From assembly GCA_000620545.1 (NCBI GenBank), contig KK211150.1:353423-417422 (forward strand): a stretch of DNA of 64,000 nt, written 5' to 3'. The translations under genes were made by a program, and so were the position numbers. How positions within the stretch are numbered: the stretch's first letter is position 1; each line of letters opens with the position of its first letter. Source of the DNA: Intrasporangiaceae bacterium URHB0013 (GTDB lineage: Bacteria > Actinomycetota > Actinomycetes > Actinomycetales > Dermatophilaceae). Positions 519-19,920 of this stretch are shown here, piece by piece. The notes beneath the pieces were generated by a model that did no database searches, had not been told where the DNA came from, and was given only the letters and a program-made list of their open reading frames with translations.

Positions 519-1151
519 TCAGTTCGAGAGGTGCTCGACTTTGATGGCTATGTCGAGAACGTCAGGAACGGCATCCAAGACGGTGACCTCCGCGAGCGCT
601 CCGCTACGGCCGTAGCGGCTCCGGTACTCCTCATACGGGAAGTGCCGAATCGGTATCCATGACTCTCTGCTCCGCATCGGATGGTTGCGTTGCGTGATCG
701 CTCCACTGTTGAACCGACAAAGCTGTATCTGCTGCTCGTACCGCTCCACTAGGAGGCGAGTATCAACGTGTATGACCACCTGGGCCTGGTTGCGGTACTC
801 GCGGGCGTTCCGCAGACGCTCGAGGCGTTCGCGGGTCGGCCAGAAGAACACCCGAGAATTGATGGCCGTCAAGAATTCGCTCACCGAATGACCGGGCTCG
901 ATCTTCTCGGCTAGGAACTTCATTGGCTTCTGGTCTCGGATCACCGCAGGCTCCAGTCCCTGCCTCCTCAGGGCTGTGGAGCGTAGACGTGGATGCGCCA
1001 AGAGTGCCTGTTGACGCTTGGTATCGACGTCGAAGACCTCGAGGAGTCGTGCCGTCGAGAGCAGGCCGAGGCGTTCGATCGAGGGCCAGGCGAGAGCCGA
1101 GGAAGCGTGGTAGACGCGAGGGCATGTAGCAATGAACTGGGCGAGCTCCAT
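519..1151 (-). CDS. DUF7002-like protein
   Basis: 210 residues. The N-terminus (…CPRVYHASSALAWPSIERLGLLST…) resembles the 'fHh…..np.SI..hGLlS' opening of DUF7002 and related ADP-ribosyltransferase-like folds. It is followed by a conserved-looking LAEKIEPG…SEFLTAINSRVFFW segment and HVDTRLL. ATG at 1151 has AGGAT about 9 bases upstream. Function is unknown. Family assignment is by eye from motif order and could be wrong in detail. It is convergent with nothing obvious and divergent from the GIY-YIG gene to its right. Confidence 0.7.
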   Translation of the reverse strand: MELAQFIATCPRVYHASSALAWPSIERLGLLSTARLLEVFDVDTKRQQALLAHPRLRSTALRRQGLEPAVIRDQKPMKFLAEKIEPGHSVSEFLTAINSRVFFWPTRERLERLRNAREYRNQAQVVIHVDTRLLVERYEQQIQLCRFNSGAITQRNHPMRSRESWIPIRHFPYEEYRSRYGRSGALAEVTVLDAVPDVLDIAIKVEHLSN

Positions 1152-1293
1152 GTCCGGATCCTGTCACCAGGGAGGTCGAACCGGCCCCGGGAGCGTTGGC
1201 CAGTGAAGGAGCCTCAACTGGGGCGGCTGAGGGCGGCTACGTCAGTATGGAGCGCGACTAAATGACGCCGTTGTCGTCGCAGCGCTCGAATCG

Positions 1294-1854
1294 TTGGCTG
1301 GCGCAAGACACGACCACGCGACGGCCGTTGCGCTTGTGCCGGCACGTCCGGGCCTCTATGCGTTCTATGGTGACGAGCTCGCGTGGTCCTCCCTTGGGCT
1401 GAGTCCCGCGTTCGACGATCAGCCTCTGTATGTCGGGAAGGCCGAGAGAAGCCTCAATGGCCGGGACGTGCGCACACACTTCGCCCAGGGGAAGACGGGA
1501 TCATCGACAGTCCGGCGGAGTCTCGCAGCTTTGCTCGCAGAAGAACTCGGACTGGTGGCCGTGCCGCGAAGCATGGCGAGACCTGACGGAAGCGCAAACT
1601 TCGGTCTGGACCCCGCGAGCGAGGCGCGTTTGAGCGCATGGATGGTGCAACGGCTTTCACTGGCGACGTGGACCAAGGATGGGGCCGAGACTCTGGACGA
1701 CATCGAGACGGTCATCGTCGGCCGCCTGCGCCCGCCGCTGAATCTCGCGAAGTCGGTGAGCCCAGAGAGCGGCTCCGGGGGCTTGAAGGCGCATGGCAGA
1801 TCTAGCTCGGGCCTGGCACCCTGGCGCTACCGAAGGCTAATGGCGTTCAGGTAA
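1294..1854 (+). CDS. GIY-YIG nuclease-like protein
   Basis: 186 residues from a TTG start. The GIY-YIG hallmark is visible as GLYAFYG (about residues 20-26) and PLYVGKAE.SLNGRD (about 44-58), then HF, an Asp/Glu-rich helix and a C-terminal RPPLNLAKS segment matching the usual family end (…rPplN). The family cuts one DNA strand using the Tyr, Arg and a later Glu. No ATG lies upstream before the in-frame stop at 1228, so TTG is the only reasonable start. The last 30 residues are low complexity. Confidence 0.7.
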   Translation: MAGARHDHATAVALVPARPGLYAFYGDELAWSSLGLSPAFDDQPLYVGKAERSLNGRDVRTHFAQGKTGSSTVRRSLAALLAEELGLVAVPRSMARPDGSANFGLDPASEARLSAWMVQRLSLATWTKDGAETLDDIETVIVGRLRPPLNLAKSVSPESGSGGLKAHGRSSSGLAPWRYRRLMAFR

Positions 1855-2090
1855 AGGTCACCCCGGGCCAGCGCGATGTCGTGGCGAAAAGACGTACTGC
1901 AATGGGAGTCCTGACACCGATCACCCGTCGAACCATGCGACTTGTGACTGGGGTCGCTTGAGTGGATGGCGAGGCATTGCAGACTTCACCTCGGAGCAAC
2001 AATCGCTTCGTGGGCCGAACCCGCGCTCTCAGAGGCGCGGGCTCGGCCCTGCCTTCATGTCCGATCCGGCGGCGTGGAGGTCGCAAGTGA

Positions 2091-2765
2091 TCACGCGTGG
2101 CCTCCGTTCATAGCCCTATCAAGGTTGTGCCGCGAAAGCACGTCTCTCATCCACTCGTCCGCCATCAGCCCCACCCAAAAGGCACCAAAGAGCAGAGCGC
2201 AGGAGGCTAAGACAGCCGTAAAAACCTTGACGAAGTCCAGAAGGGCGTGGACGTCAGAAGTCGCCGTGGGCCACAACAGCACCCAATCACCAAGCACTAT
2301 GACGCCGGCAACAACCCAGAAGACACTCAGAACGAGCAGGGTTTGAAAAGGTCGAAGATCCGCCGCCTCCGGCTCGAGCCGGCGTCGAAACCCTTCATCG
2401 AGAACAGACCAGAAGTCCTCGCGGGGGGTCCACGACCTCCGCTTTGCCATCGGGTGCTGTTCCGCGGCCGACTGCAGCGCGGCGTCCGCGGTCTCAAACC
2501 GTTGGTCCTCCACCCACCGCGGGTGGCTCGGGTCACCCGCGCACGCGGCGACTTGCGGATCCAGCTCGAACAGGAAGAGGTGGGGAATCACATCGACGCC
2601 GGCGCAGCGGACTCTCCGGTGCGTGTAGGTGCCGTCAAGCCTCTCCATCAGCACGGCGATCTCCACCGTGGCCGGCTCCAAGCGGCTGCGGCGCACAGCG
2701 ACTACCTGGGCTCTGTCCACCCACGGTTGCCGTGGCCTGTCCTCCGGCCTCCGCCTCGACACCAT
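2091..2765 (-). CDS. Hypothetical membrane protein, two TM helices
   Basis: 224 residues from ATG 2765; a longer GTG start at 2813 is possible. The N-terminal half is soluble and acidic/basic mixed. Two hydrophobic segments follow in the C-terminal half: TLLVLSVFWVVAGVIVLGDW and, after a short loop, VFTAVLASCALLFGAFWVGL. This suggests a hairpin in the cytoplasmic membrane with a large soluble domain. I do not recognise a family. It lies alone between the GIY-YIG gene and the lipoprotein gene. Confidence 0.55.
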   Translation of the reverse strand: MVSRRRPEDRPRQPWVDRAQVVAVRRSRLEPATVEIAVLMERLDGTYTHRRVRCAGVDVIPHLFLFELDPQVAACAGDPSHPRWVEDQRFETADAALQSAAEQHPMAKRRSWTPREDFWSVLDEGFRRRLEPEAADLRPFQTLLVLSVFWVVAGVIVLGDWVLLWPTATSDVHALLDFVKVFTAVLASCALLFGAFWVGLMADEWMRDVLSRHNLDRAMNGGHA

Positions 2766-3050
2766 CCCTTCAGGATGGCACCGCGAGTCAGCAACGCGAT
2801 GGGAATCGCGCACAGCGCCTTGTCCGGCGACATGCGGGGGCGAATCTCATGGAGATCCGCGGGCTTCCTACGGCTGAACCGATTCGGGAGCGCTTGGCGT
2901 GACCGAGTCGGTCCCAAGGAGTTGGTTCAACCCTGACGTAAACACGCACCACGGCGCCGACAGATATTTGAGCCTTACTCGCGGCGGTGTGACGCTGTCC
3001 CGCGGGCGTCTTGATGCGAGGGGCCCACGGTTCACCGAGGTCGACGCTAC

Positions 3051-3515
3051 TTATCCTCCGACGAGTGACTTGAACTTGGGACAGTCCGAAAGAATTGCGA
3101 CCACGGCCACCTTGGCGGCGACGTCACCCTTGAGGTGAAAGGCGTCCTTCATCCAAGGGCCTACGGTGCTCGCCTTACCCGACTCGATACGGTCACAGAT
3201 GCCCCGGGCCAACTCGTCCATCTTGGTGCTGTCATCCATCCCGGCTGCCTTGGCGGCGGCATAGAACGCGATTTTTCCGCCCAACTTCTCGCCCACGGCC
3301 TTCGCGCCGTTCGAGTCAGAAGACGTCGCAGTTGTCATGTCGGGGGTAGGTGAGCTGGCGGAGGACGAAGCTGGAACTCTAGACGGTGTCGGCTTCGCGC
3401 TCGGAGCCTCAGTGGTAGCCACCTGCGTGGGGGCGGCTGTGGACGCCGTGACCGAATTGGACGAGCAGCCAGTAGCGGCGGCGACGACGAGAGCGGCGAC
3501 CACAAGATGTTTCAT
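3051..3515 (-). CDS. Putative lipoprotein (DUF732-like C-terminus)
   Basis: 154 residues. ATG 3515 begins a lipoprotein signal peptide (MKHLVVAALVVAAATGCSS) with lipobox ATGC; Cys17 would be lipidated. A Ser/Thr/Pro/Ala-rich linker of about 60 residues follows. The compact C-terminal domain contains ARGICDRIESG and a terminal SDCP, where two Cys could form a disulfide, reminiscent of the DUF732 fold of secreted actinobacterial proteins. The frame is open upstream to 3683, but the lipobox fixes the start. Surface-exposed; function unknown. Confidence 0.7.
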   Translation of the reverse strand: MKHLVVAALVVAAATGCSSNSVTASTAAPTQVATTEAPSAKPTPSRVPASSSASSPTPDMTTATSSDSNGAKAVGEKLGGKIAFYAAAKAAGMDDSTKMDELARGICDRIESGKASTVGPWMKDAFHLKGDVAAKVAVVAILSDCPKFKSLVGG

Positions 3516-4012
3516 GCTCGAAGTGTTATACATTGCACTGCTTGTCCGAAGGCGGCAGGCCGTTGTTCTGGCCTTTTCGACGAATCCCGGTGCACTACCT
3601 TGGCGCCCGGCGGGCTGCATGCGGGCGGCGGCGAAATCCCGGAACCGCTCGACGGCTTCGACCCGACCTGGCCGCTTGCGCATCAGGCAAGGACGCTGGC
3701 CGCAGAGGGCGGGGCTGGGTCGACCGTGCTTGCCGCCTTAGCGCGTACGCGTGCGCCGGCACGCGGCGGAAAGACGCGCCCGCTGGGCCGACAGGAGCGG
3801 AGGGCCGCCGCCGGTGGCTCGGACCCCCTTAAGCACCAATACACAAGCAGGCCGTGAAAGGCCCACCTCCGAACTGGCCGAGGGAGGGGCACCCGCCATC
3901 TGAGCATTGTTAGCGCTGGCTGACATTAGTGCCCCGCATGAATCGGGTCCCGAATGCGCCGACGTCGATGCCTGGTCGCTGAACGTGCGATGTCCCGTGA
4001 CGAGCAGCAGAG
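3516..4012. other. Intergenic stretch without convincing gene
   Basis: About 500 bases between two minus-strand genes. Several short open frames exist on both strands, but their translations are Arg/Pro-rich and look like read-through of GC-rich DNA. A GTG overlapping the stop of the gene at 4013 (GTGA) opens a 92-codon frame that I do not believe. No hairpin or repeat stood out. Confidence 0.4.
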
Positions 4013-5209
4013 TCACACGCCGAGGGTCAGTTGTCTGGAAAGCTGTTCGAGGGCCCGCTGGAGCCTGTCGAGTATCTCCTGCAAGCCGTCGTAGCTGTCC
4101 GCGAACTCAATCCAGTCACGGATTTCGACCAAACTTCGAGAAGCGGCCCTCCCGGCCATATGTGAAGGGTCAACGCGGACCATTTGGGGCATTGCGGCAC
4201 GGGCTCGCTCGAGCCGGAACCACCAGCGCATCGCTTCGATTACCGACGCCCGCATGAGCGGGTCGACATGCTCGGGTTGATCCTGGAGCATGAGTTCGGT
4301 CACCGCGTCCGCGGCCAAGGCCGCCTTGAAGAACGCGCGCTCGGTGGCAGCGAGCACCAAGAAGGGATCCGCCTTCGCATCCTGCTCACCCAGACGTTCC
4401 GCTATGAGCGCTGCGCTGGCGACTTGAACGCCGGTCTCGGCTGCCTTCTTGCCGGCCACTGTCATGCTGGCAGTGAGCGCAGCGCTCCCGGCAGCGCCGA
4501 CCCCACCGACGGGGAAAAGCACGGCACCCACCCCTGCGGCGATGGTCGCCGGGATAATGGCCCGGGCCCCGGTGCGGGCCATGGTCAGCAGACGGTCACG
4601 CAGACGTTTCCCTTCCGGGGTCTCAGAGTCGGCGCCTTCGACAGCGTCGATCAGCCGCCGTAGCCGGAACACGTAGACCAGCATCCGGTGGGACGCCTCC
4701 GCGCTCAGCTCGCCGCGGCTCGCAGCATCTGGCGCGGTAATCGCTTCGGACAGCGCGATCTGCATCTCGCGGGCCGTCTGCGCACTTGAAGGCGGCGGGA
4801 TGTACCCCATCAGATCTAGCAGTCCAGTGAGGTCGGACTCGAGGACCTCCATCACCCGGGCGCGCTGCTCGGGCGTGGCCAGCCCCAGTCCCTGCTCCGC
4901 CGCCGAGAGGTCAGACCAAAACGCTGCGTCGAGAGCCAGATCGGACAGCACCTTCGCGATCTGCCGGGCCGCGTCGCGTAAGTACCGCGCCCAGTCCTCG
5001 CTGAGCTCCACGGCGTCGCGGGCCTCAATCAGATCTGCGGTGGCGGCCCGACAGTCTGCTAAACGAGCGGCGAGGGTAGAGGCGGCCGCTGCCTCGGCGT
5101 CCGCATCCGACTGGTCGCCCTGGCGTTCCCGACCGGCCTTCGGTGTCGCCTTCGAGGTCTCCCTGAAGTGCTGGCTGCCTTGTCTAGCGCGCTGGCTCGC
5201 TCTGCTCAT
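4013..5209 (-). CDS. Hypothetical protein with central hydrophobic segment
   Basis: 398 residues from ATG 5209, preceded by a G-rich Shine-Dalgarno-like run. The N-terminus is polar and charged (about 40 residues), followed by a long helical region. A hydrophobic, Gly/Ala-rich stretch (IIPATIAAGVGAVLFPVGG and onward) at about residues 217-250 could be one or two membrane segments or a pore-like helix. The C-terminus is helical with heptad-like Leu (LQEILDRLQRALEQLSRQL). No known family recognised. Such a helix-hydrophobic-helix layout occurs in effector-type membrane proteins, but that is speculation. Confidence 0.65.
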   Translation of the reverse strand: MSRASQRARQGSQHFRETSKATPKAGRERQGDQSDADAEAAAASTLAARLADCRAATADLIEARDAVELSEDWARYLRDAARQIAKVLSDLALDAAFWSDLSAAEQGLGLATPEQRARVMEVLESDLTGLLDLMGYIPPPSSAQTAREMQIALSEAITAPDAASRGELSAEASHRMLVYVFRLRRLIDAVEGADSETPEGKRLRDRLLTMARTGARAIIPATIAAGVGAVLFPVGGVGAAGSAALTASMTVAGKKAAETGVQVASAALIAERLGEQDAKADPFLVLAATERAFFKAALAADAVTELMLQDQPEHVDPLMRASVIEAMRWWFRLERARAAMPQMVRVDPSHMAGRAASRSLVEIRDWIEFADSYDGLQEILDRLQRALEQLSRQLTLGV

Positions 5210-5480
5210 GACGACCCCCTGTTGTCAGCGGCTGCTCACCACTTGGACACACGTTGGGCTACGGGCCCGCTTGCCGTCAAGACGCCCGGCGCCCTCGGGT
5301 CAGTGGCGACCAAGCTCCGGCAACCGCGGCTGTGCCACCGCGCGAGGTCACGCACTGCCCGGAACCTACGATTCGCGACGCGAGGCGGTCTCGACACCTC
5401 AATGATCGGTAGTTCCGATGACAAGCACAGAGGACCTTCAATGGAGCCTGCTGGCCCGTTCAAACGCCCTTGCTCCGGAA

Positions 5481-5493
5481 TAGGGTGCGGAGC
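5481..5493 (+). promoter_or_regulatory. -10 box for leaderless start
   Basis: TAGGGT at 5481-5486 lies 7 bases before ATG 5494, which fits a TANNNT -10 box with transcription starting at or beside the start codon. Confidence 0.4.
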
Positions 5494-5967
5494 ATGTCGG
5501 CTGAAGCCGCAGACCTTGGCCACGCTACAAACCGTCGGCGTTACGAGTTGCTTCATGCCGGCTTGGAGGCGAGCCTCATCTCGCGCCCCGGGGAAGATAT
5601 GGTCGCTATGTGCCTCCGGAAGCCCGAGGCGGAAGCCACCGACGCGCTCCGCGGTTCCTTGAACCGGCTCGGCGCTGGCGACGAGTATCTGGCGCGACGC
5701 AAGGCCTCCGTCGGGGTGGCGGGAACTGACCTCACCCTTCAGGACCTCCCAAGCGGACAGCTTCTCGTCGCGCTGGAAGCCAAGGCCATAACGGCTACAG
5801 ACGCTCACGCCCCAGGGTTTGATGCGTGGTTTGATCCGCAAGTCGGCGCCGACGTTTCGAAGCTCGAGCGAAGTCAAGCAAATTTGCGGCTGTTTCTGGT
5901 GTACAAAAACCATTGGCGCTGGATGGCAAAATCCGAAATGCGGGCGATGGATTCGTGCGACATCTGA
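5494..5967 (+). CDS. Small PD-(D/E)XK nuclease-like protein
   Basis: 157 residues from ATG 5494. A candidate nuclease core is visible: GTDLTL (Asp79) followed by a strand ending in ALEAKAI (Glu95-Ala-Lys97), the D…ExK spacing of PD-(D/E)XK enzymes. After this come FDPQVGADVSKLERSQANL and a strand LFLVYKN, as in restriction-type endonucleases. It is short for a stand-alone restriction enzyme. There is no methyltransferase nearby. Assignment is by motif only; substrate unknown. Confidence 0.55.
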   Translation: MSAEAADLGHATNRRRYELLHAGLEASLISRPGEDMVAMCLRKPEAEATDALRGSLNRLGAGDEYLARRKASVGVAGTDLTLQDLPSGQLLVALEAKAITATDAHAPGFDAWFDPQVGADVSKLERSQANLRLFLVYKNHWRWMAKSEMRAMDSCDI

Positions 5968-6154
5968 GCATCAGGTCGCGCCGGCGTTGCCGTGAGGAGT
6001 CGAGGATAGGCGTTTGAATGCGCACGTACCTTGGGTGACCACTCGGGCAGCTAGACCATCGCGCCGGTCTGGCCATCACGCGACGTGGCCGCCAACATGG
6101 GGTGAAGCGTCGCGCGGCGGTCAGGGAGCGTGGCCCTGCGGGTGGGGGAAGCCG

Positions 6155-7480
6155 ATGGTGGAAGGGCTCAGCTTTATCGAGGCGCTGACCGAGCGTCTGG
6201 GGAGTCGAGAAGCGGCCGAGGCCGTTTCCCGCGCGTTCGGGGAGGTGGTCCGTGAGGAGGTCGCCCGCGGTGGCCGGGTCGCGGTTCCAGGATTCGGGGT
6301 TTTCGACGCTGGCACCTCCGGGGAATCGGATGGCGGCCCCGCCAGACTGCGATTCCGCCCTGGGAGGGTATTCCGGGAAATGGTCAACGAGGGGCCTGCC
6401 TCCCTGCCAAGTCAGAGCGGGGTCGCATCCCTGCTGCCGGGCCATCCACCGCCCGAGGAGGGTGCTTCACGAGCGGCTCGGCCCGGAGCGCGAGCCCGCG
6501 CTGAGCAGGCCCGTGACGCCCGGCTCGGGACGGTTCTGGCGTTCCGGCACTACGACGTGCCAGCGGGGGTGTCCTTGTCCGCGGTGCTGCCGGACGACTC
6601 TCCACGGTGCGGCATCTACGTTCTTTACTTTCAAGACGGCCACCGCTACGTCGGACAGGCCCGGAATGTCTTGGCCAGATTCGGGTCGCACCGGCGGCGC
6701 TGGGCTGGACAAATCATCGGACTGGACTTCGCGCCCGCGGCCCTAAGCGAGCTTGACGACCTTGAGCGGCGCACCATTCAACAGCTTGAGCAAAGCGGCA
6801 TGGGACTGTACAACTCGGCGCTGGTCGGGCTGCCCATGGGCGAGAGCCCCTTGGACCTGGTGGTCGACCGCGTGGAGCAGGAGCGGTGGCTCGATGGCTC
6901 TACCCGTACCGCCTACGACTTCGGCGACCGGCTTGCGACTGCGGATCAGCGGTCGCGTGCGAGCAGCAAATTGGACGCCCTTCGAGCCCGTGAGGACTAC
7001 CAAGAGCTGCGCTTCGCGCTGCTGCGGTATCTGGCGAGCGTGGTTCCTTGGCCGCAGGAAACGGAACGCCGCTTCTGGTCGATCACCTCGATGCCGAGCA
7101 CCAACCAATCGCGCACGCAGCGCCGGCTCACTGCCATCAGCGTCAACAACGTCGAAACCCTCGTCGTGGCGGAGCTCTTGGAGGCGGGCGAGTGGGTGAC
7201 GGGTGGTTTCATCAATGTCTCGCCCGGGCTGGTGCGACGTCACGGGCTTAGATGGCCAGTCATCGGGCGTCGGTATCGGACGGTGGGCGAAGTCGATGCG
7301 ATCTACTTCGTTGGGGCCGAGGGACTCAGTGACCTCTTGGAGCGTGCTGACGTTGTCGATGCCGCACGCCGGCTGGCCCTCGGCCTGATGCGCAAAGGGC
7401 GGGGGATGATGGCGAAGTACCACGATGAGAGCTTGGCCGATGACGTCTTTGCGTCGTTCGCGGAACACGATGCTGGCTAG
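6155..7480 (+). CDS. HU/IHF-type DNA-binding domain fused to GIY-YIG nuclease
   Basis: 441 residues from ATG 6155, with GTGGGGGAAG upstream as ribosome-binding site; a longer frame from 6014 has an unconvincing N-terminus. Residues 1-80 match the histone-like HU fold: FIEALTERLGSREAAEAV helices, GRVAVPGFGVF, and LRFRPGRVFREMVN, equivalent to HU's 'kFkPGk.lkd.vN'. The DNA-embracing arm is shortened. After a linker, residues 152-225 hold a GIY-YIG module: CGIYVLYF, HRYVGQARNVLARFGSH, DLERRTIQQLE and LYNSALVG. The remaining 200 residues form an unrecognised C-terminal domain. Likely a DNA-targeted endonuclease; role unknown. Confidence 0.8.
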   Translation: MVEGLSFIEALTERLGSREAAEAVSRAFGEVVREEVARGGRVAVPGFGVFDAGTSGESDGGPARLRFRPGRVFREMVNEGPASLPSQSGVASLLPGHPPPEEGASRAARPGARARAEQARDARLGTVLAFRHYDVPAGVSLSAVLPDDSPRCGIYVLYFQDGHRYVGQARNVLARFGSHRRRWAGQIIGLDFAPAALSELDDLERRTIQQLEQSGMGLYNSALVGLPMGESPLDLVVDRVEQERWLDGSTRTAYDFGDRLATADQRSRASSKLDALRAREDYQELRFALLRYLASVVPWPQETERRFWSITSMPSTNQSRTQRRLTAISVNNVETLVVAELLEAGEWVTGGFINVSPGLVRRHGLRWPVIGRRYRTVGEVDAIYFVGAEGLSDLLERADVVDAARRLALGLMRKGRGMMAKYHDESLADDVFASFAEHDAG

Positions 7481-7963
7481 TCCTGCAGGAAGAAAGCTTC
7501 CAGACTCGGGCACGGCACAATCCGGAGAGCGCGCCCTCGCGTTCTGAGCGGGCCAGTTCATCACGTGGAGAAGGCCCCACGGCAGGCCTTCGCCATCGTT
7601 CGCGGAATGACCCCGATAGGGGGACGAAGCCACTGTCGATTCCCCGACGGGGGGCTTGCCTGGGCCGCCGGCTAGCTCTAGTGGGCCCCGGTGAGCAGGT
7701 GGGCTGGGACGCTAGGTCGGTGCATCGCCCTGGCTGAGCCGCATGCGGGGACGCCGGCGCCGGCACAGCTGTGGTCCGGGCTTCCTGGGGCGTTGGGAGC
7801 ATCTGCGCCAGCCTTGTGCACGAGTGCGCCACAGTCGGGATTGCGCCGGCGCATCCTGTCCTTCACCGACCAGCCCAGGGGTCCGGTAGAAAACCTGCCT
7901 CCGGCGGCTGCACCGTCCGCGCCCGACCTCGACAGCTAGTGCCCTGCGGCCGGATCTCCCCTC
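7481..7963. other. Intergenic stretch, no supported gene
   Basis: About 480 bases between two plus-strand nuclease-like genes. Open frames on both strands give Pro/Arg/Ala-rich translations without domains. I see no repeat or clear hairpin. The downstream end contains the -10 box of the next gene. Confidence 0.4.
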
Positions 7964-7975
7964 TAGAATCCAGAC
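7964..7975 (+). promoter_or_regulatory. -10 box for leaderless start
   Basis: TAGAAT at 7964-7969, 6 bases before the GTG at 7976. This fits a leaderless promoter and supports the chosen start. Confidence 0.45.
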
Positions 7976-9232
7976 GTGCGGCTACTTCGGCCAGACATAC
8001 CCTCCGGCGTCAGCGTCTGGCGCGATGTACCAGGCGGTCACGTTGTCGAGGCCGCATACGTCTGGGACGCGGGATTCGTGTGGTGCGGGCTCGAGTCGAG
8101 ACTGCCCCCGGCGGACGTCGCAGTGCTAGGCGTCCGTCCCGGACGCCAACAGTTCTGGGTTCATGACGACGAGAAGGGCGACCTCGTGGGCGGCGCGGCT
8201 CCCGACTTCCTGCGCTCACTCGTTTCATCGGGGCTCTCGGAGCCGGCGCAACTCACGATGTTCTACGGCCCGAGCGGGCAGTCCAAGAGGTTGCTGTCCG
8301 GTGACCCGATCGACCTCGACCGACCGGAGGACCTCGGCGTCGTTCCTCGCTGGGATGACCCTGCCCTCTTCCCTGCGAAGGAGCCGGGCCGGATCGCCAA
8401 GTATCGCCGGCATCAGTCCTGGTATCGCGAGAACGTTCTTCAGACCGCGCCAGGGGCGTACATGAGGTATCCGGCGCTGGGCAGTTACCTCGATGCGGAC
8501 ATCGTTGAGGCCGACCCGTCCCTGAACTTTTTGAGCGCGGGAGCTGAGGCGCACGCCCGTGAACGTTCAGCGGTGGTCAAGACGGAGGGCGGGGCACTCG
8601 ACCCTGTCCGTCTGCGACGCAACATGTTGTCGAGCATGCCGCTCTGCTTCAACCTGTTCGGCTCCATGCGGAGCGAAGCCACGGCCTTCCTCCCACTGTT
8701 CCAGAACCTGTTCGACCCGAATGCCACCGCGATCCGGGATGTGATCTGCGAGTACGCGCCACAGCCCCCTGCTCAGTTTCTCGGTGACCGCACGGCCTTC
8801 GATGCGATCGTGCTCTACGAGACTGCCCAGGGTCCTCGATTCATCGGTATCGAAACAAAGTACACGGAGGCGTTCAGCGCCACTGAGTACGACTCCGATC
8901 GCTACCAAGAGATAACGGCTAAATCGGGCTGGTTCAGAAACCCGCAGTCTGTGCGCGAGACGCTGAAGGGCCGCACGTCCAACCAACTTTGGCGCAACCT
9001 GATGCTGGCGGCCGCGCTCGAACAACGTGGGACGCATGGCTCCGGAGGCGTCGCAGTTGTGGCGCTCGAGCACGACCCAGGCGCTACTCAAGCGATCCAG
9101 ATACTTCGTCCCGCCCTCACCGACCAAAGCCGGCTTATGTTCGTGTCTCTGGAGTCCATCGTGGCGGTGGCAGGTAAGGTTCCGGAGCTGGTTGCGTGGT
9201 CATCGGCTTTCCGGGTCCGTTACCTTCCGTAG
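7976..9232 (+). CDS. PGN_0703 family putative restriction endonuclease
   Basis: 418 residues from GTG 7976. The C-terminal two thirds carry the features I associate with PGN_0703-type putative restriction endonucleases: RHQSWYRE, LSSMPLCFNLFG (about 218-229), DRTAFDAIVLY (about 271-281), FIGIETKYTEAFS (289-301), then an SNQLWRNLMLA helix. D276 and E293-x-K295 form a PD-(D/E)XK active site. The first 130 residues are an additional N-terminal domain that I do not recognise. No cognate methylase lies nearby, so classical restriction-modification is not shown. Confidence 0.8.
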   Translation: MRLLRPDIPSGVSVWRDVPGGHVVEAAYVWDAGFVWCGLESRLPPADVAVLGVRPGRQQFWVHDDEKGDLVGGAAPDFLRSLVSSGLSEPAQLTMFYGPSGQSKRLLSGDPIDLDRPEDLGVVPRWDDPALFPAKEPGRIAKYRRHQSWYRENVLQTAPGAYMRYPALGSYLDADIVEADPSLNFLSAGAEAHARERSAVVKTEGGALDPVRLRRNMLSSMPLCFNLFGSMRSEATAFLPLFQNLFDPNATAIRDVICEYAPQPPAQFLGDRTAFDAIVLYETAQGPRFIGIETKYTEAFSATEYDSDRYQEITAKSGWFRNPQSVRETLKGRTSNQLWRNLMLAAALEQRGTHGSGGVAVVALEHDPGATQAIQILRPALTDQSRLMFVSLESIVAVAGKVPELVAWSSAFRVRYLP

Positions 9233-9774
9233 CTCACTCGCCGCTCGGCAGAGCAGGGTCGTGGGTAGTCCGACCAGCGACCGTCGACTGCAGCCTGTCT
9301 CCGAGAGGTTGATGCAATCCCGAGAGTGCCGTCGCGACGGGCGTCTGCCAACTCAATGCACTTGGCGACCTCTGAACGAGAGATCACTTCGAAGTTCTTC
9401 ATGAGACCCCGGCGGGCCAGCTGAGACCCGTCCTGGTCATGAATGAGAGCCATACACCCAGCCTTGCCAGCGCAATAGGTGCCACGACGTTTGACGGACG
9501 CACATCAACGCCCGGGTCGCCTCTGGCCCTGTGCTGGTCCGCGCGATGCTGCGCCTGGTGCGAAGCCCGGAAACCGCGAAGGTACGTCGGCGGATGGAGC
9601 GTTCGCGGCGATGTGACGCGGCCGCCTCGGCATTCACGGACCTTCTAGACGGGACCCTCCTTGGTCGAGTGGGCGATGTCACGTCCCCCGTTGAACCGTG
9701 CATCGGCGCGGTGCGTCGTCACGTGTGGGGCCGACCCTAAAAAGTTGGCGCCCGATGGGAGAGAGGTGATCAGG
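9233..9774. other. Intergenic stretch, no supported gene
   Basis: About 540 bases. A 69-codon plus-strand frame (9531-9740) and an 88-codon minus-strand frame (9437-9703) overlap here; both are Arg-rich and lack recognisable start signals. This may be a decayed region. Just before 9775 there is a purine-rich GAGAGAGG ribosome-binding site for the microprotein. Confidence 0.35.
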
Positions 9775-9897
9775 GTGCTAACCAAGCGATGGGTGATCGC
9801 AGGACTTGTTGCAGTCGCTGTCGTGGTGGTCGTTCTCGTGGTCGTCTACGGCGGTGGCGGTGGCGGTGGCGGCAACGGCGGGGGCGGCGGCTACTAG
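9775..9897 (+). CDS. Gly-tailed single-TM microprotein
   Basis: A 40-residue product from GTG 9775 (GTG 9766 is an alternative). GAGAGAGG lies about 8 bases upstream, which favours 9775. The sequence is a short basic start (LTKRW), one strongly hydrophobic helix (IAGLVAVAVVVVVLVVVY) and a tail of almost pure glycine (eight Gly, Asn, five Gly, Tyr) before TAG. The clear ribosome-binding site, the helix and the clean tail argue for a real small membrane peptide. Function unknown. Confidence 0.45.
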   Translation: MLTKRWVIAGLVAVAVVVVVLVVVYGGGGGGGGNGGGGGY

Positions 9898-10074
9898 GCC
9901 GCCGCACTAGTTCTCCTACGCCGTCAGCCCAGGATCAATACCGTCCTTAGTGCCTATGGAGCCCGACGTGGGGGCGATCGCGGCGGATAGACGCATCGCG
10001 TCGTTGGACATCGCGCCACGAGCATTAAACTCCGCGGCCGCGAGTCTGGGATGGCTGTCGGCCACGACTGGCGA

Positions 10075-10350
10075 TCATGTGCTGAGTCGGTCTAGTGCCC
10101 GGACGGCTGCGTCGATCTGCGGGAGAGTCGAATCTTGGATCCCCTCGAGGTAGGCGGTCTTCTGCTCCTTGTTCTCAGTGAACTTCCGGGCCAGAAGGGC
10201 TGCCCTCCGCCCGGCGAAGCCCGACGCGTCGTCGGTCCCGGCTGCTGATCCGACCCGTAGGTCCGCACCACTAGCAAGAACCGTCGTTCTTTCGCCTTCG
10301 AACCACTGGAGCATGGCGACATCGGTCTCGATGCTGGAATAGGCGACCAT
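10075..10350 (-). CDS. Small hypothetical protein, third gene of ATPase-HEPN operon
   Basis: 91 residues from ATG 10350 (a TTG four codons upstream is possible). Sequence is soluble and mixed charge, with FAGRRAALLARKF, KTAYLEGIQDS and a C-terminal helix AAVRALDRL. It follows the HEPN gene on the same strand after about 80 bases, so cotranscription is likely. I do not recognise a family. It could be an accessory or immunity component, but nothing in the sequence shows that. Confidence 0.5.
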   Translation of the reverse strand: MVAYSSIETDVAMLQWFEGERTTVLASGADLRVGSAAGTDDASGFAGRRAALLARKFTENKEQKTAYLEGIQDSTLPQIDAAVRALDRLST

Positions 10351-10431
10351 TACGGGGTCCAAGGATCGCTGATGATACGACTACCAAGAACGCTGGCGCC
10401 CCCTCCGGCCCTCGACACAATCCCGGACGTC

Positions 10432-11670
10432 TCACGACCTCAAGCTTTTGAGGGCAACCCGCACGATAGCGGCGTCCCGCGGTTGAGGGATGCGCATGTG
10501 TGCAAATCTGTTACGAATGGGGATTAGTTGGTTCTTGACAAGACGCCAACGCGCCGAACCGAGGCCAAGCAGTGGGGCCGATGTGCTCCTTTCACATGCC
10601 AACTCGAGTAAGTCATCGAGCAGCAAATAGTCCAGAGGGTTGGCGACGTCATTCGCGTTTTCGACCGCGACAAAGCCGTCGGCAAGAGCCAGGTTGAGGA
10701 TGGATTCGGCCTTGGGACCTAGACCCGCCGTGCACCACTCCGACCCGAACTCGTCCTGCAGGTTGATTCCGACCGCCCGCCTGATCGTGCGCTCGATGCT
10801 GAAGAGATCCGCCGCAATTTGGGTCCACTCTCGTGGTGGAACTGCGACGGCCGAAATTGCATCTTCTAGCGCAAATCGTGCTTCAATGCGCCAAGCCACA
10901 TCGAATATGCGAACGCAGCTCCCCGAGTGGTCCGGATCGCAAAGCCCGGAATCCAAGAGGGCCTGCATCATGGCATCCGGGGCCAATGCGTCCTCGAGAA
11001 CCTCCTGCCGCAGCCGCAGCGCGACCTCCTCGAGAATTGCTAGGCAACCGTTGTCGAGTTCTGTCAAAGCAGTCCCGAGTCGCGTCTTGGTCAGACCGCT
11101 CGCGTGGCGCAACTTCTCACTATTTGAAGCCTCCATACGGTTCACAACTAGGAAGTCCTCCAAGAGGCCCGGGGCGCCTCCGGATTTGGCTATCGCGACA
11201 GCCAGGTGCTTGTCATCGAGATCGGCCGATACTTGAGAGAGTTGTTCCGCATCTAGTCTGTGGAATCGCACAATTGCCGAATCGGCAAGAAGTGACGATC
11301 CCAGAGGTGCGCGGAACCACGTAAGCGGCCTCATGGACGTCATCAACACTCTAGTCCCGGTAGCGGCTATTGCGCTCAACTGGGGACGCATCGTCTCGAT
11401 TAGGGGTATAGCCCCGTCCTGAGATGCGCCGTTCTCAAGGCCAGCAACGACGATAACATCGACATCTGAATCCTCACGCAGGCTGAAGTCAGAGCCGCCA
11501 ACCTTCTGCAGACTTACAGACATGCCCATTGCTTCGAAGGATGAGCAGAGGTCGAGTTCGTATTCGCGAGTTCGTCGAAGTGCCCCGGCATGCATGAATG
11601 AGATCTGCTTCGATGCCACGGACTGCGCTTCGGTGGCATACCAGCCCGGGCTTCGAAAACCCCCAGTCAC
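10432..11670 (-). CDS. HEPN-domain protein (Swt1-like C-terminus) coupled to ATPase
   Basis: 412 residues from GTG 11670, which overlaps the stop of the upstream ATPase gene (GTGA); an ATG at 11709 is an alternative. The N-terminal 130 residues contain strand-like DVDVIVVAGL and RVLMTSMRPL. A helical middle follows. The C-terminus (PLDYLLLDDLLELA … LIPIRNRFAHMR) matches Swt1-type HEPN domains. RNRFAH (about residues 386-391) is the Rx4H motif that forms the RNase site in catalytic HEPN proteins. Overlap with the ATPase implies coupled translation and stoichiometric partners. Confidence 0.65.
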   Translation of the reverse strand: MTGGFRSPGWYATEAQSVASKQISFMHAGALRRTREYELDLCSSFEAMGMSVSLQKVGGSDFSLREDSDVDVIVVAGLENGASQDGAIPLIETMRPQLSAIAATGTRVLMTSMRPLTWFRAPLGSSLLADSAIVRFHRLDAEQLSQVSADLDDKHLAVAIAKSGGAPGLLEDFLVVNRMEASNSEKLRHASGLTKTRLGTALTELDNGCLAILEEVALRLRQEVLEDALAPDAMMQALLDSGLCDPDHSGSCVRIFDVAWRIEARFALEDAISAVAVPPREWTQIAADLFSIERTIRRAVGINLQDEFGSEWCTAGLGPKAESILNLALADGFVAVENANDVANPLDYLLLDDLLELACERSTSAPLLGLGSARWRLVKNQLIPIRNRFAHMRIPQPRDAAIVRVALKSLRS

Positions 11671-13454
11671 GGCTGAGCCACCAGACGGGCAAGAGGAGTA
11701 GGAGCCCATTCTGAATCGTGCTCCGCGATCAAACCGAGGCGCTCCAATACCAGAGACTGATCAAGATAGTCAGTTTCGATTTCAAAACTCTCGATCAGGT
11801 TCTGCGATACGAGCAGCAGGAGGATACAGGCATCCGGGTAGTACCTCTCAAAACTCTGGTACATCTGTCGAATCTGTTGTGCCACGGATCGCTGCCATGC
11901 CCGCAACGAGGCTTGCACATCGGCGAGGACTATCACGCGGTACTCGACGTCCAAGGGCAATTGGTCAACGCAGAACGCACATAGCGACCGCAGGAGGAAT
12001 GCATGACCGCCTGTCGCGTCATACATCGCCGCCATGGCTTCTGGTGTCCATTCCAGAGCCATCCGCCGTCCAATTGCTCGGATCAGCTCGCTTGCCTCGT
12101 CAGAACGGAGGGGCGGCAAATAGTAGGCGGTCGCCCAGGCAAGCAGTGGATTTTCCCGGCCGGACAGCTGTCCCTCCGTTAGTATGGAATCTGTGATTCC
12201 GCTCAGGAGTACGTTAAAGTTCCGATTCTCCTGAACCAATGCCCTCAGGACGCCGAAGAACTCTGGCAAGTAGGATCTTTCGGGGTCTTTGCCCGGATCC
12301 AGGCCAAGCAACGATTCGACTTCATCAAGCGCAAGAATTATTTGATGCTCAGCCGCGGACGCGTGCCCTAGAGAGGCGCTTACTGCGCGTCGAAAATCGG
12401 ACCAGGTCGATGATGTTGAGAGTTCGGAGAGTTCGTGTGTCCGAATGTTGTGTTGGCGAAAGCTGACAAGCAGCGCCCCAGTGAGGTCGGATAGGAGTAC
12501 CTCAGAGTGCGTAGATGCATCGGAGGGCAGCGTTTCGAGATCCCTGAGAATGAAAAGTCGGTGAGCCGTGTCCGCCTTGACGAACTGTCTCCCTAGCTCG
12601 AGGATGAGAGAGGTCTTTCCCGTCTTCCTCATTCCGAAGACGCCGCAGACGCGGCCCTCGCGTAGGCGCTGTGATAGTGAGATAAGCAGTTCCTGACGAC
12701 CAAAAAAGTCTGCACCCCGCACTGGCAGGGTTTCACTATAGAGATTTCGTGAGGCACGGACGGTAAGGATCTGAGACACGAAGGACTTCGCGTCAGCCAC
12801 ATGGTCGGCGGATGGCTTGGCGACGGCCACGGCCGTGAACGGCTCGCGTATTGACCACTCGGTCAACTTTCGCTTTGCTCGAAGATCTCGCGAGGAGACA
12901 AGGTATATGTCGTCTTGTGTGGCACGCGGTAGGTTCTCCGCGAGCGATGGAAGCCGCTCGAAGTCCCTGCGCTGCAGGTCGTGGTGCAAGCTGTACAACA
13001 GAAGCACCTCCTGGCTAAACCCAAAGATTGCTTCCATTCTCCTGCCGAACCGGACAGTGGCAATCCAGTCCTTCGGCTGCCGGGCGCTCCGTCGGAGAGC
13101 GACAATCTCCGAGCCTAGGATGCGGAAGGCCTCGGCGTGACCTCGAATTTCAGGAAAATCGAATGCCGCCTCTCGCCAGCGCTTCCTAAACTCGTCGCTG
13201 GTCACCGGCTTGATCGCCCCGAATCTGAAGCCTTTTAGGTCGAGATCATGCGTTGGCCTGGGGCGCCCCGTCTCAGTCACGACCGACAACCTAGTGCCCC
13301 TCCGGTGCGCGAGGCCGTAGCCGCGCGGGATATAAGCCACGATCCGGTCATCGCCAAATGTTGTGGGCGCAGGTCGCGCATGAAGCACTTCGCGTTGCGC
13401 TCGTGAGGGCCGACGAGGCCGCCTGACTGCACCTATGCAGGCCGATGGCGACAT
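11667..13454 (-). CDS. AAA/STAND-like ATPase
   Basis: 595 residues from ATG 13454; GTG 13388 is a plausible alternative, and the open frame upstream to 13733 overlaps the next gene and looks non-coding. Residues 100-245 form a conserved-looking N-terminal domain (MEAIFGFSQEVLLLYS.HHDLQ, LVSSRDLRAK). Residues 247-500 form a P-loop module: FFGRQELL box, Walker A GMRKTGKTS (274-282), Walker B IILALDEVE (372-380), and GHAFLLRSLC as the sensor-2/winged-helix junction. A winged-helix-like C-terminus follows. Layout resembles STAND/ORC-like ATPases of bacterial conflict systems. Confidence 0.75.
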   Translation of the reverse strand: MSPSACIGAVRRPRRPSRAQREVLHARPAPTTFGDDRIVAYIPRGYGLAHRRGTRLSVVTETGRPRPTHDLDLKGFRFGAIKPVTSDEFRKRWREAAFDFPEIRGHAEAFRILGSEIVALRRSARQPKDWIATVRFGRRMEAIFGFSQEVLLLYSLHHDLQRRDFERLPSLAENLPRATQDDIYLVSSRDLRAKRKLTEWSIREPFTAVAVAKPSADHVADAKSFVSQILTVRASRNLYSETLPVRGADFFGRQELLISLSQRLREGRVCGVFGMRKTGKTSLILELGRQFVKADTAHRLFILRDLETLPSDASTHSEVLLSDLTGALLVSFRQHNIRTHELSELSTSSTWSDFRRAVSASLGHASAAEHQIILALDEVESLLGLDPGKDPERSYLPEFFGVLRALVQENRNFNVLLSGITDSILTEGQLSGRENPLLAWATAYYLPPLRSDEASELIRAIGRRMALEWTPEAMAAMYDATGGHAFLLRSLCAFCVDQLPLDVEYRVIVLADVQASLRAWQRSVAQQIRQMYQSFERYYPDACILLLLVSQNLIESFEIETDYLDQSLVLERLGLIAEHDSEWAPTPLARLVAQP

Positions 13455-13690
13455 CACCGCTTGCCAGCAGCTCCCCACCTCGTCCTGAAGATGTGCGTTC
13501 GCGGGGGTACGACGAACGCTCTTTGACGTTGCCGAAGCGGTTGCGGGCCGCGCGCGCTGTCTGGCGATGAAGCATGACTGTCGAGCCGAGACCTGGCGCT
13601 GTGGCACACGCCCATCTGGGCGAGATGAGACGTCTTCTGCTCCTGCCTGCCGCACGGAGAGTCGAAGGCCCAGCCAGAGCCGCGACAAGA

Positions 13691-15454
13691 ATGAGCTACA
13701 TGACCCCCACTCGACCGAGTACCCCATGGTCAATCGTTCCCGCGAACTCGGCGGCGCCCGACGGCACGGCGTTGGCTATCGCGCGCCTGCCATTCGCGTT
13801 CACACAGGACGAGCTCCTGACGGCCGATGCCTTCCTCAAGCAAGCCGAACGCCGTGGCCACCAGATCTCGCTCGCTGTCCTTTCAGACCTTCACGACCTT
13901 GGCATCCTCAAGCCACTGTTCCGCGTCGGCGACGTGGCTGCCGTCGGACGCCGGATCGACGTGCCGGATTCGGCCGACATGAACCCCCGCGGATGGTTCT
14001 TGCAGGCCGCCGCCGCCGGGCGGCTGCGCGATGTCGCCTCCGAAGGCCGAACCATCTCTGAGCCGTATCAACGTCCGGCGGACGAAACCGACCGCCGATG
14101 GTGGAACGGCTTCCTGTACTCCAGCTGGCAACTCATAACAGTCGGAAGCGCACTGACCGAGTACGAGCTCCACCAGCGAGGGTGGGGCTCACCCGCGAGC
14201 CGCACCCTCTCGGACCGTGCACGGCCCGGCATTCTCGCGCTGTGCACCTTGTCCACCCGGCACTTACCGTCAATCCTCGGCACGTACTCAATCCCCGCCG
14301 GCTACGACGGCGAGGGACTCTGGCGATCTCGGTTCGACATTGACGACCGGGAACGTCTGTCTCTCGTCAGTTTCAACGCGGCGGGCCTGCGCAGCCATGC
14401 CGAGGATCTACTCATGCGCGCGCACGATACCGACCCGATGATCGACTGGTTACCACTCCTTCGGCATGCGAGCCACAAGGCCTGGCAGAAGCTGAAGGAG
14501 AAGCCCCTCGAGGCGCACGAAAAGCGCGTAGCCGCAGAGATTCTGCTCCGCGCCCACGAAGAACTCGCCGAAGACGGCCTCCTTGAACCCCTCCCGGAGT
14601 TGGGCCGCCAAGGCTGGTGGACACCGCTCCATGATCGGCTCACCGCCGGCGCGGCGGCCGATTCGCTAGACCACGCTCTCGGCACGTTCGGCTTGTCGCC
14701 ATACCCGCGCGTGCTGATGCTTCTAGAAGGCGACACCGAGATGGTTCACGTACCAAAGCTTCTCGCACTGTACGGGCTCGACCGCCCCGATCGCGTGCGC
14801 GTGCAGAACGTTGGCGGCTCCAGGGTCAACCCCCAGCTCATAGCGCGATACGCCGTTAGCCCGCGCATCGGACCGGCTCGGGGTGGGGAGCAATTCCTCG
14901 ATGCCACCCCCACGGCCCTAGTGGTCGCCATGGACCCGGAGAACAAATGGGCGACCGAAGCCGACCGGACTGCCCAGCGTGAGAAGCTCCAGGCAGCGAT
15001 CCGGGAAGAGGTCCAACGGCAAGGTGCCGACATCACAGACAAGGATCTCGACTTCCTCGTTCGAGTGTTCGTCTGGGGCGATCAAACCTACGAGTTCGCC
15101 AACTTCACGGACTTGGAGCTCACCGATGCGTTGGTGGAGCTTGCGACGGAGCAGAAGACCGCCGGATCTGACACTGCCGACTGGCGACGGCAGGCGGAGG
15201 CGGAGTTTGCGGCCGCGCGAGGCAGCCGCCAAGACGCTGGAGTCGCGATCGGGAGAATGCGCGTCCGAACCAACAAACCTCGACTTGCTGAACTGTTATG
15301 GCCGACGCTGCTCCAGGAAGTCGAAGCAGCGGAATCCGATGCCACTATGGGACGCCCGGTGCACGAGCTAGTTCGCATGGTCAGAGAGGTCGTATCGCGG
15401 TTGTCTGCTTCCGGATACACGCTAGATCAGCCGAGCGTAAGTCCGGAAACCTGA
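13691..15454 (+). CDS. TOPRIM-like domain protein, divergent from ATPase-HEPN operon
   Basis: 587 residues from ATG 13691 (ATG 13700 or the distal ATG 13574 are alternatives; conserved-looking sequence begins near residue 12). The long N-terminal region is helical with no motif I know. Near residues 340-420 there is a TOPRIM-like pattern: VLMLLEGDTEMVHVPKLL (E346-G-D-T-E350), then VQNVGGSRVN, then ALVVAMDPENKW (D415, E417). This is the acidic triad layout of OLD-type nucleases, but no ABC ATPase domain is attached. The C-terminal 170 residues are helical. Confidence 0.6.
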   Translation: MSYMTPTRPSTPWSIVPANSAAPDGTALAIARLPFAFTQDELLTADAFLKQAERRGHQISLAVLSDLHDLGILKPLFRVGDVAAVGRRIDVPDSADMNPRGWFLQAAAAGRLRDVASEGRTISEPYQRPADETDRRWWNGFLYSSWQLITVGSALTEYELHQRGWGSPASRTLSDRARPGILALCTLSTRHLPSILGTYSIPAGYDGEGLWRSRFDIDDRERLSLVSFNAAGLRSHAEDLLMRAHDTDPMIDWLPLLRHASHKAWQKLKEKPLEAHEKRVAAEILLRAHEELAEDGLLEPLPELGRQGWWTPLHDRLTAGAAADSLDHALGTFGLSPYPRVLMLLEGDTEMVHVPKLLALYGLDRPDRVRVQNVGGSRVNPQLIARYAVSPRIGPARGGEQFLDATPTALVVAMDPENKWATEADRTAQREKLQAAIREEVQRQGADITDKDLDFLVRVFVWGDQTYEFANFTDLELTDALVELATEQKTAGSDTADWRRQAEAEFAAARGSRQDAGVAIGRMRVRTNKPRLAELLWPTLLQEVEAAESDATMGRPVHELVRMVREVVSRLSASGYTLDQPSVSPET

Positions 15455-17887: not shown

Positions 17888-18790
17888 ATGGAGCACCTGT
17901 TCGCCAGCGCCGACGACGTCACGACCGCCCTGGGCGGCACGGGCTACCTCGCCGACGAGGCGCTCGCGACGGTGACCTTCCTCGCGACCCGGCTGAACCG
18001 CCCGATCCTGCTCGAGGGCGAGCCCGGCACCGGCAAGACCGCCCTCGCCGAGGCGCTCGCCGCCTCCCTCGACCTCAAGCTCATCCGCCTCCAGTGCTAC
18101 GAGGGCATCGACGCGACGCAGGCCCTCTACGACTGGGACTTCCCGCGCCAGATCCTGCACCTGCGCACCGTCGAGGCCCTCTCCCGCGACGCACACCACG
18201 ACGCCAACCCCACCAACACCGCGGCCCTCGAGGCCGAGCTCTTCGACGAGCGCTTCCTCCTGGCCCGCCCCGTGCTGCAGGCCCTGCGCGAAGCCCCCTG
18301 CGTCCTGCTCATCGACGAGATCGACCGCGCCGACGACGAGTTCGAGGCCTTCCTCCTCGAGGTCCTGAGCACGTGGCAGGTGACGATCCCCGAGCTCGGC
18401 ACCGTCAGCGCCGCCACCCCGCCGGTCGTCGTCCTCACCTCCAACCGGACCCGCGAGCTGCACGACGCGCTCAAGCGCCGCTGCCTCTACCACTGGATCG
18501 ACCACCCCGGCCTGGCCCGCGAGCTCGAGATCGTCCGCACCCGCCTCCCCGACGTCAGCGCCGCGCTCGCCGAGCAGGTCGTCACGCTCGTCCAGCGCCT
18601 CCGCTCCTCGGGGGACCTCATCAAGCCCCCCGGTGTCGCCGAGACGCTCGACTGGGCGCGCGCCCTCGAGACCGTCGGCGCCACCCGCCTCGACGCCGAG
18701 GTCGCCGCCGCCACCCTCGGCGCCGCCCTGAAGTACCGCGAGGACTCCGAGAGGATCCGCGCCTCGCTCGACAAGCTGCTCACCGCATGA
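17888..18790 (+). CDS. MoxR-type AAA ATPase (CoxD-like)
   Basis: 300 residues. Walker A GEPGTGKTALAEALA (about 44-58) and Walker B CVLLIDEIDRADDEFE (about 138-153) are intact, with the sensor Asn in VVLTSNRTRELHDALKRRC. MoxR ATPases pair with VWA proteins to remodel or activate metalloenzymes; CoxD/CoxE act in sulfuration and copper insertion in CO dehydrogenase. Here it overlaps the VWA gene by 4 bases (ATGA), as in cox loci. Confidence 0.88.
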   Translation: MEHLFASADDVTTALGGTGYLADEALATVTFLATRLNRPILLEGEPGTGKTALAEALAASLDLKLIRLQCYEGIDATQALYDWDFPRQILHLRTVEALSRDAHHDANPTNTAALEAELFDERFLLARPVLQALREAPCVLLIDEIDRADDEFEAFLLEVLSTWQVTIPELGTVSAATPPVVVLTSNRTRELHDALKRRCLYHWIDHPGLARELEIVRTRLPDVSAALAEQVVTLVQRLRSSGDLIKPPGVAETLDWARALETVGATRLDAEVAAATLGAALKYREDSERIRASLDKLLTA

Positions 18791-19912
18791 CCCCGACCGC
18801 CCCAGCCCCCGCCCAGACCACCAGCCAGCCCGACGTCGACGAGCTGCTCCTCGGCTTCGCCCGCGCCCTGCGCGCCGCCGGGCTCGGCGTCACCGCCGAC
18901 CGCGAGCGCACCTTCCTCATCGCCGCGGCCACCGTCGGCATGGCCGAGCGCACCGGCGTCTACTGGGCCGGCCGCGCGACGCTCACGTCGACGCCCGCGG
19001 ACTTCCCGGCATACGACGAGCTCTTCGAGCGCTGGTTCGGCGGCGAGTCGATCCCGAAGGGACGCCGCGCCGACATCCACCGCCCGCCTGTGCGCCAGGC
19101 GCCGCTCGATGGCGGCGAGGGCGAGGCCGGTGACTCCGACGCCGACACCCTCGAGGCCCGCGCCAGCGCCCAGGAGGTGCTGCGCCACCGCGACGTGGCC
19201 ACCCTGGGTGCCGCCGATCGAGCGGCTGCCGCGCGCCTCTTCGCCGGCCTCGCCCCCCGCGCGCCGCTGCGTCGCGCCCGCCGCCACGTGCGCGCGACGA
19301 GCGGCACCGTCGACGGCCCCGCCACGCTGCGCGAGCAGTTGCGCCGCATGGGCGAGCCCGGCCGCATCCACCACCGTCGCCGCGGTGTCCGCCCCCGACG
19401 CATCGTGCTGCTCGTCGACGTCTCCGGGTCGATGAGCCCGTATGCCGACAGCCTCTTGCGCCTCTGCCACGTCTTCGTGCGCACGGTGCCCCACGTCGAG
19501 GTCTTCACCATGGGCACCCGCCTGACCCACGTGACCCGGGCGCTCGCCGAACGCGACCCCGATCGGGCGCTCGCCGCCGCCGGACGCGTCGTTCCCGACT
19601 GGTCGGGAGGCACCCGTCTCGGCGAGGCGATCGGCGCCTTCCTCGACCGCTGGGGACGGCGGGGTATGGCGCGGGGCTCTGTCGTCGTTGTCTTCTCCGA
19701 CGGCTGGGAACGTGAGGGTCCGGAGGTGCTCGGCGAGCAGATGCGCCGGCTCGCCGCCCTCTCGCACCGGGTCGTGTGGGCCAACCCGCACCGCGGGAAG
19801 GTCGGCTACGAGCCGGTGCAGCAGGGGATCGTCGCGGCCCTGCCGCACATCGACGACTTCGTCGCGGGGCACTCGCTCGCGGCGTTCGAGGAGCTGATCG
19901 AGGTGGTGGCCC

Positions 19913-19920
<8 letters not shown>
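18787..19920 (+). CDS. VWA domain protein (CoxE-like)
   Basis: 377 residues. ATG 18787 overlaps the stop of the MoxR gene. The N-terminal half is helical and ends in an Arg-rich segment. The C-terminal von Willebrand A domain begins at RRIVLLVDVSGSMSPYADSLL, with the MIDAS DxSxS motif, continues with WSGGTRLGEAI (MIDAS Thr region) and VVVVFSDGWEREGPE. This matches CoxE-type partners of MoxR ATPases. Likely cytoplasmic and part of the maturation machinery for the molybdenum hydroxylase downstream. Confidence 0.88.

Follow-up and report, generated by a model that had tools for sequence, protein, structure and literature searches.

An HU domain without its DNA-binding arms fused to a GIY-YIG nuclease in Terrabacter and a second genus

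In a 64,000-nucleotide stretch of the genome of Intrasporangiaceae bacterium URHB0013 (contig KK211150.1, positions 353,423 to 417,422; hereafter the window), a gene was analyzed whose 441-amino acid product (P0001) consists, in this order, of an HU domain, a divergent linker, a GIY-YIG domain and a C-terminal region that is conserved. HU, which packs DNA in bacteria and is widely conserved, is mostly free-standing and possesses arms. In P0001 and two homologous fusions, the HU domain is disarmed while its dimer-forming body is intact, and is therefore best read as a pairing module. Our favored explanation, which is still tentative, is a restriction or defense-type GIY-YIG nuclease in which the disarmed HU domain would pair two subunits for double-strand cutting. 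The kind of nuclease is known, the architecture appears to be new.

Results

The gene is located at positions 6155-7480 of the forward strand (ATG at 6155, stop codon at 7478-7480). Mechanically, its reading frame extends in 5' direction to a TTG at 6014. Since the homologue of Terrabacter sp. Ter38 (G007) likewise begins with MVE and similarity of the DNA is only weak further upstream, the ATG at 6155 was assigned as the start. The window genome belongs to the same genus as Ter38, Terrabacter (Actinomycetota, Micrococcales, Intrasporangiaceae). The fusion is rare and its carriers are soil actinobacteria; it was found in three genomes of two genera, namely in the window, in Ter38 (68% identity) and in a genome of a second genus (G126). 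Because of this recurrence in two further genomes, an artefact of the frame or the assembly is very unlikely. The preliminary description had read the gene as an HU/IHF-like domain with a shortened arm, followed by a linker, a GIY-YIG module and a C-terminus. Both the frame and this domain reading hold, as judged by the homologues of the same domain order in Ter38 and G126, Pfam, a profile match and the alignment.

The HU/IHF fold predicted for the N-terminus (residues 1-80; 6155-6394, forward strand) was recovered by several methods. Pfam revealed a match to PF00216 (Bac_DNA_binding) at residues 7-52 (E 8.2e-5; 23.2 bits compared to the curated cutoff of 22.4). This family matched three of the seven members of set A2 and three of the 16 members of set A6; the first match of each set was named, the other two were taken as the two further fusions. 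By hhalign, a profile of the three fusion HU domains aligned to 11 ordinary HU proteins of relatives, used from 16 loci, with a probability of 98.5% (E 3.3e-15, 39% identity over 77 columns). The AF2 model of residues 1-82, made with the Ter38 homologue, reached a mean pLDDT of 70 and a pTM of 0.50 and has the HU order of elements. Foldseek returned 88 matches to this model at E 10 or better, and the 50 listed were by title all HU, IHF or their complexes (best E 3.7e-4, six at E 0.001 or better, TM about 0.5-0.6). A PDB sequence search also matched the HU part to HU and IHF chains. The domain shares with HU/IHF proteins such as HupB of actinobacteria (PF00216) the alpha-alpha-beta-beta-beta-alpha order and the GFGxF and FRxG motifs. 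Within the three fusions, GFGVF and RLRFRPGxxFR of the HU body are invariant. It differs from HU/IHF in being joined to a nuclease, in its nearly neutral charge and in its arm.

Between the phenylalanine of GFGxF and that of FRxG, ordinary HU proteins possess 30 residues, the three fusions only 18, 18 and 14. In P0001, this stretch comprises residues 50-67 (6302-6355, forward strand). The beta arm is thus shorter by 12, 12 and 16 residues, as the alignment demonstrated for all three fusions, and the GRNPxTG tip is missing. The net charge of the HU domain is -2 (window), +1 (Ter38) and 0 (G126), compared to +3 to +9 in the 11 ordinary HU proteins, in which the arm alone contributes +3 to +8. 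Beta arms with a proline tip and a basic saddle, the marks of a functional DNA-bending HU, were not found in the fusion HU. A shortening as large as this one is unusual for HU: according to PMC5683647, a single residue is deleted in about 3.4% of the HU proteins, larger deletions occur only rarely, and most are located in the loop between helices 1 and 2. A search of 184 genomes of the family with the HU part separated the three fusions, all with E values of at most 4.3e-33, from the remaining matches, the best of which had 2.2e-16. No further armless HU emerged among the matches listed, of which those spanning the arm mostly covered about 258-270 bases, like ordinary HU, and the others stopped before the arm.

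These data bear on the suggestion of the preliminary description that HU would bring the nicking domain to DNA that is bent or damaged, which is not supported by an arm lacking 12-16 residues and the GRNPxTG tip and by the charges given above. The idea is weakened further because the DNA-binding arms were lost while the helical body was kept; according to PMC5683647, the arms of HU bind DNA and helices 1 and 2 stabilize the dimer. In favor of the idea, nicks, junctions and bulges are bound by HU proteins (PMC5683647), the homology of the domain to HU is clear, and its FRPGxxFR segment retains basic residues. However, with short arms in three of three fusions and net charges close to zero, it is unlikely that the domain acts as a DNA-binding module which guides the nuclease to DNA with bends, nicks or branches. 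Rather improbable, too, is a pairing of the fusion HU with HupB of the host, by which the nuclease would be tethered to the nucleoid or held off as long as HU is abundant, while unpaired copies would cut HU-poor incoming DNA. Heterodimers are formed by the HU subunits of Escherichia coli (PMC5683647), the fusion HU has retained the dimer-forming body and not the DNA arms, and the host genome encodes a full-length HupB. On the other hand, a homodimer and a heterodimer look alike on the present sequence evidence.

The GIY-YIG domain (residues 127-232; 6533-6850, forward strand) was identified by Pfam, by alignment and by comparison with the positions of I-BmoI and Eco29kI (PMC3161791). In P0001, PF01541 matched residues 152-180 with E 0.0024 and 18.5 bits, which is under the curated cutoff of 22.6; at E 0.01 or better the family was detected in 11 of 16 members including the window protein (best E 5.9e-5). 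The active-site positions Y155, Y165, R175, H179, E204 and N220 were assigned by their order (Y, Y, R, H, E, N), so that the module read by the preliminary description is present with all six. Y155 and N220 are kept in all 17 aligned members, Y165, R175, H179 and E204 in 16 of the 17. All four losses fall in a single protein (G124, L030:1474-2508, reverse strand), which is probably inactive. The full-length AF2 model (mean pLDDT 38.5) is unreliable, even though its order of strands and helices fits GIY-YIG; its poor quality is probably due to the lack of a deep alignment. With the family profile, a search of PDB sequences gave one weak match on the GIY-YIG part (1zg2, E 0.19). Apart from HU, the PDB sequences yielded nothing besides this and one weak unrelated match.

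The C-terminal region (residues 233-441; 6851-7477, forward strand) had been described as 200 residues of unknown sequence. It indeed lacks a Pfam match but is conserved across the family, including members without HU. Relatives of this region were also encountered elsewhere. A 254-aa frame without GIY-YIG motif (G000:C9:332631-333140; L002, L034) is located on the same contig about 20 kb to the left of the window start (profile E 1.2e-13), and a similar frame (L033, E 4.9e-12) exists in G116, which has the C-terminal part only.

A profile of four members (A1) applied at E 1e-9 matched 10 of 186 genomes of the family and 12 of 248 genomes of the order, while the single protein, used as query at E 1e-8, matched two of 296 genomes of the class; each count includes the window's own genome. 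Eight of the 10 family genomes have a readable GIY-YIG frame, three of them with HU (window, Ter38, G126). In the 11 other genomes of the order, seven readable frames were found, none with HU. The GIY-YIG frames of G202, G290, G402 and G053 were left out due to contig edges or partial or broken frames; G342 was covered solely by the HU-profile search of 23 loci. Overall, HU is present in three of the 17 aligned full-length members, and because the other 14 do without it, HU appears to be dispensable for the basic activity. An HU domain hidden upstream of the HU-less relatives was considered and rejected. In the six frames of the 23 loci (3,067 stretches of at least 30 codons; 16 loci shorter than 4 kb), an HU profile built partly from the three fusions matched only these at E 1 or better, and the HU parts gave a best E of 0.19 by tblastn against L048, L049 and L050. 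In the tree, a branch with support 79/64 sets the three fusions apart, inside an enclosing group (99/96) that includes the HU-less member of G163. The tree is compatible with a single gain of HU, but also with two gains or one loss. A phage origin was rejected as well: a search of 50,697 phage records did not return any match, and the 55 pattern matches on viral contigs did not include a relative. Among plasmid records, 16 gave partial matches, none of them spanning 80% of the query.

Regarding its genomic surroundings, the window gene is located in a variable stretch that is missing at the corresponding flank in four other Terrabacter genomes. The DNA on the left side of a boundary at 15.65 kb, or no further than 17.07 kb, did not give any blastn match at E 1e-20 to the flanks of G006 and G003; to those of G004 and G001, three scattered pieces matched, all from the left of the window. 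Positions 17888-19920, by contrast, are present in all nine genomes of the genus. At the corresponding flank, G003 contains SIR2- and AAA/OLD-like genes and G006 metabolic and regulatory genes, both by reading. Within the window, a PDDEXK_13/REase-ARP gene (7976-9232; Pfam) lies about 0.5 kb from the fusion gene, and a second GIY-YIG protein (GIY_YIG_2, 1294-1854, forward strand; Pfam E 9.6e-15) about 4.3 kb away. A STAND-like NTPase (nSTAND1, 11667-13733, reverse strand; Pfam E 5.4e-7) is adjacent to a 626-aa frame (13574-15454, forward strand) that has no Pfam match and is TOPRIM-like by reading (LLEGDTE); the two are possibly a defense pair. A DUF7002 gene (Pfam) also belongs to this stretch. 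To the left of the window, two closely similar frames resembling tyrosine recombinases (by reading) were noted about 26 kb apart (L051:1857-2396, 179 aa; L052:8328-9200, 290 aa), the latter ending about 2.2 kb from the window start. This pair may bound an island. The Pfam scan of eight neighbors at 519-15454 did not detect a methyltransferase; neighbors in other loci were mostly assessed by reading.

Across the family, restriction or defense-type genes occur in five of the eight neighborhoods examined (window, L047, L048, L050, L055; not in L046, L049 and L056), a count for which part of the genes was scanned and which has no control set. A GmrSD_N gene in G062 (L050:10147-13275, reverse strand), whose RAMA-like C-terminus is below the cutoff, is located 18 bp upstream of an HU-less member, and a two-gene operon is possible. 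In Ter38, GmrSD_N and HEPN genes lie at least about 1.7 kb away from the fusion gene, and in G163 the family member is separated by about 6 kb from a SIR2-STAND gene. A Rhodococcus opacus plasmid with a distant member has DUF262, DUF3883 and restriction-endonuclease genes nearby. No defense-type neighbors were recognized in G126 (DedA- and chemotaxis-receptor-like genes by reading), in G014 (Fic) and in Deinococcus. In two genomes of the genus of G126, the DedA flank matches but no DNA match was obtained for the HU-GIY-YIG gene, a pattern consistent with a single gene that is mobile.

The variable location and the patchy distribution also bear on the question of whether the fusion is a repair enzyme of the UvrC/Cho or Slx1 type instead of a defense nuclease. 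According to a survey of the superfamily from 2006 (PMC1564403), the domains most often fused to GIY-YIG are those of DNA repair. Nevertheless, as Pfam does not find a repair domain in P0001 and relatives are as scattered as described, a repair function has only a small chance of being correct.

To assess which parts of the protein are maintained, dN/dS values between the window protein and its Ter38 homologue were compared. They amounted to 0.26 for HU, 0.82 for the linker, 0.11 for GIY-YIG, 0.19 for residues 233-300 and 0.27 for residues 301-441; for HU against G126, where synonymous change is near-saturated, the value was 0.24. Thus, purifying selection acts on the HU part and keeps it, while the linker is much freer. 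The linker (residues 81-126; 6395-6532, forward strand) consists to 71% of Pro, Ala, Gly, Arg and Ser across residues 82-126 and is 27% identical to that of Ter38 over 41 columns; merely nine columns could be aligned with G126. The absence of HU in 14 of the 17 full-length members and the free divergence of the linker would suit a neutral passenger that came in by recombination and has no function of its own. However, HU has a low dN/dS and has been retained in a second genus, where it is 49% identical, which makes such a passenger improbable.

Discussion

The six active-site residues connect P0001 with GIY-YIG restriction enzymes. R.Eco29kI has the same order Y, Y, R, H, E, N (PMC3161791), while in R.Hpy188I two of the six positions are occupied by K and Q (PMC2630997). 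What separates P0001 from these enzymes and Cfr42I is its HU domain and the lack of a recognized partner methyltransferase. PMC3161791 further states that Eco29kI and Hpy188I cut as dimers with one strand nicked per monomer, that Cfr42I is a tetramer and that homing enzymes are monomers cutting by two nicks; GIY-YIG domains have acquired extra units for oligomerization or DNA binding. Similar to P0001, the type IV enzymes Ahi29725I and Apa233I combine an N-terminal DNA-related domain with GIY-YIG, but in their case this domain is a winged helix reading N6-methyladenine (PMC11037411). A section heading of that paper indicates that methyltransferase neighbors are rare for the wH fusions.

PADLOC, applied to 16 family members, did not list any match to the GIY-YIG proteins PD-T4-3 and PD-lambda-1, which act as single genes. 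It gave only weak matches, to PDC-S14 in three of the 16 (best E 7.5e-4) and to UzuA in one. The GIY-YIG stretch that the candidate PDC-S14 shares with the window protein is limited to 34 residues (E 0.0097). New HU/IHF clades in biological conflicts were reportedly described in 2017. PD-T4-3 and PD-lambda-1 are phage-defense proteins for which the table row in PMC10952713 does not name HU. The preliminary description had regarded the architecture as lacking a described counterpart; in open-licence PubMed Central, no paper joining HU and GIY-YIG was found, and the words "histone" and "IHF" are absent from the text of PMC1564403.

One further reading makes the disarmed HU a kind of chromatin plug: pairing with HupB would hold or silence the nuclease on the HU-coated chromosome and leave it active on uncoated incoming DNA, which, if true, would be a test of self and non-self by nucleoid packing without base modification, but we consider this very improbable.

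According to the favored explanation, the pairing of two subunits by HU, a GIY-YIG nuclease in an ancestor within the Intrasporangiaceae would have gained an N-terminal HU domain, whose arms were then lost. The product would be a single-gene endonuclease, most likely of the restriction or defense type, carried in variable regions. Two subunits may pair via the HU body, which retains the dimer-forming part, and the paired HU domains could bring two GIY-YIG active sites to opposite strands, resulting in a double-strand cut. The C-terminal region, also existing in HU-less members, probably provides target recognition or regulation.

An armless, nearly neutral HU on a nuclease suggests that the body of HU has been reused minus its grip on DNA. 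The fusion is thus a natural test of what the HU body does by itself, and the GIY-YIG family with its unnamed C-terminal region deserves testing as a defense nuclease.
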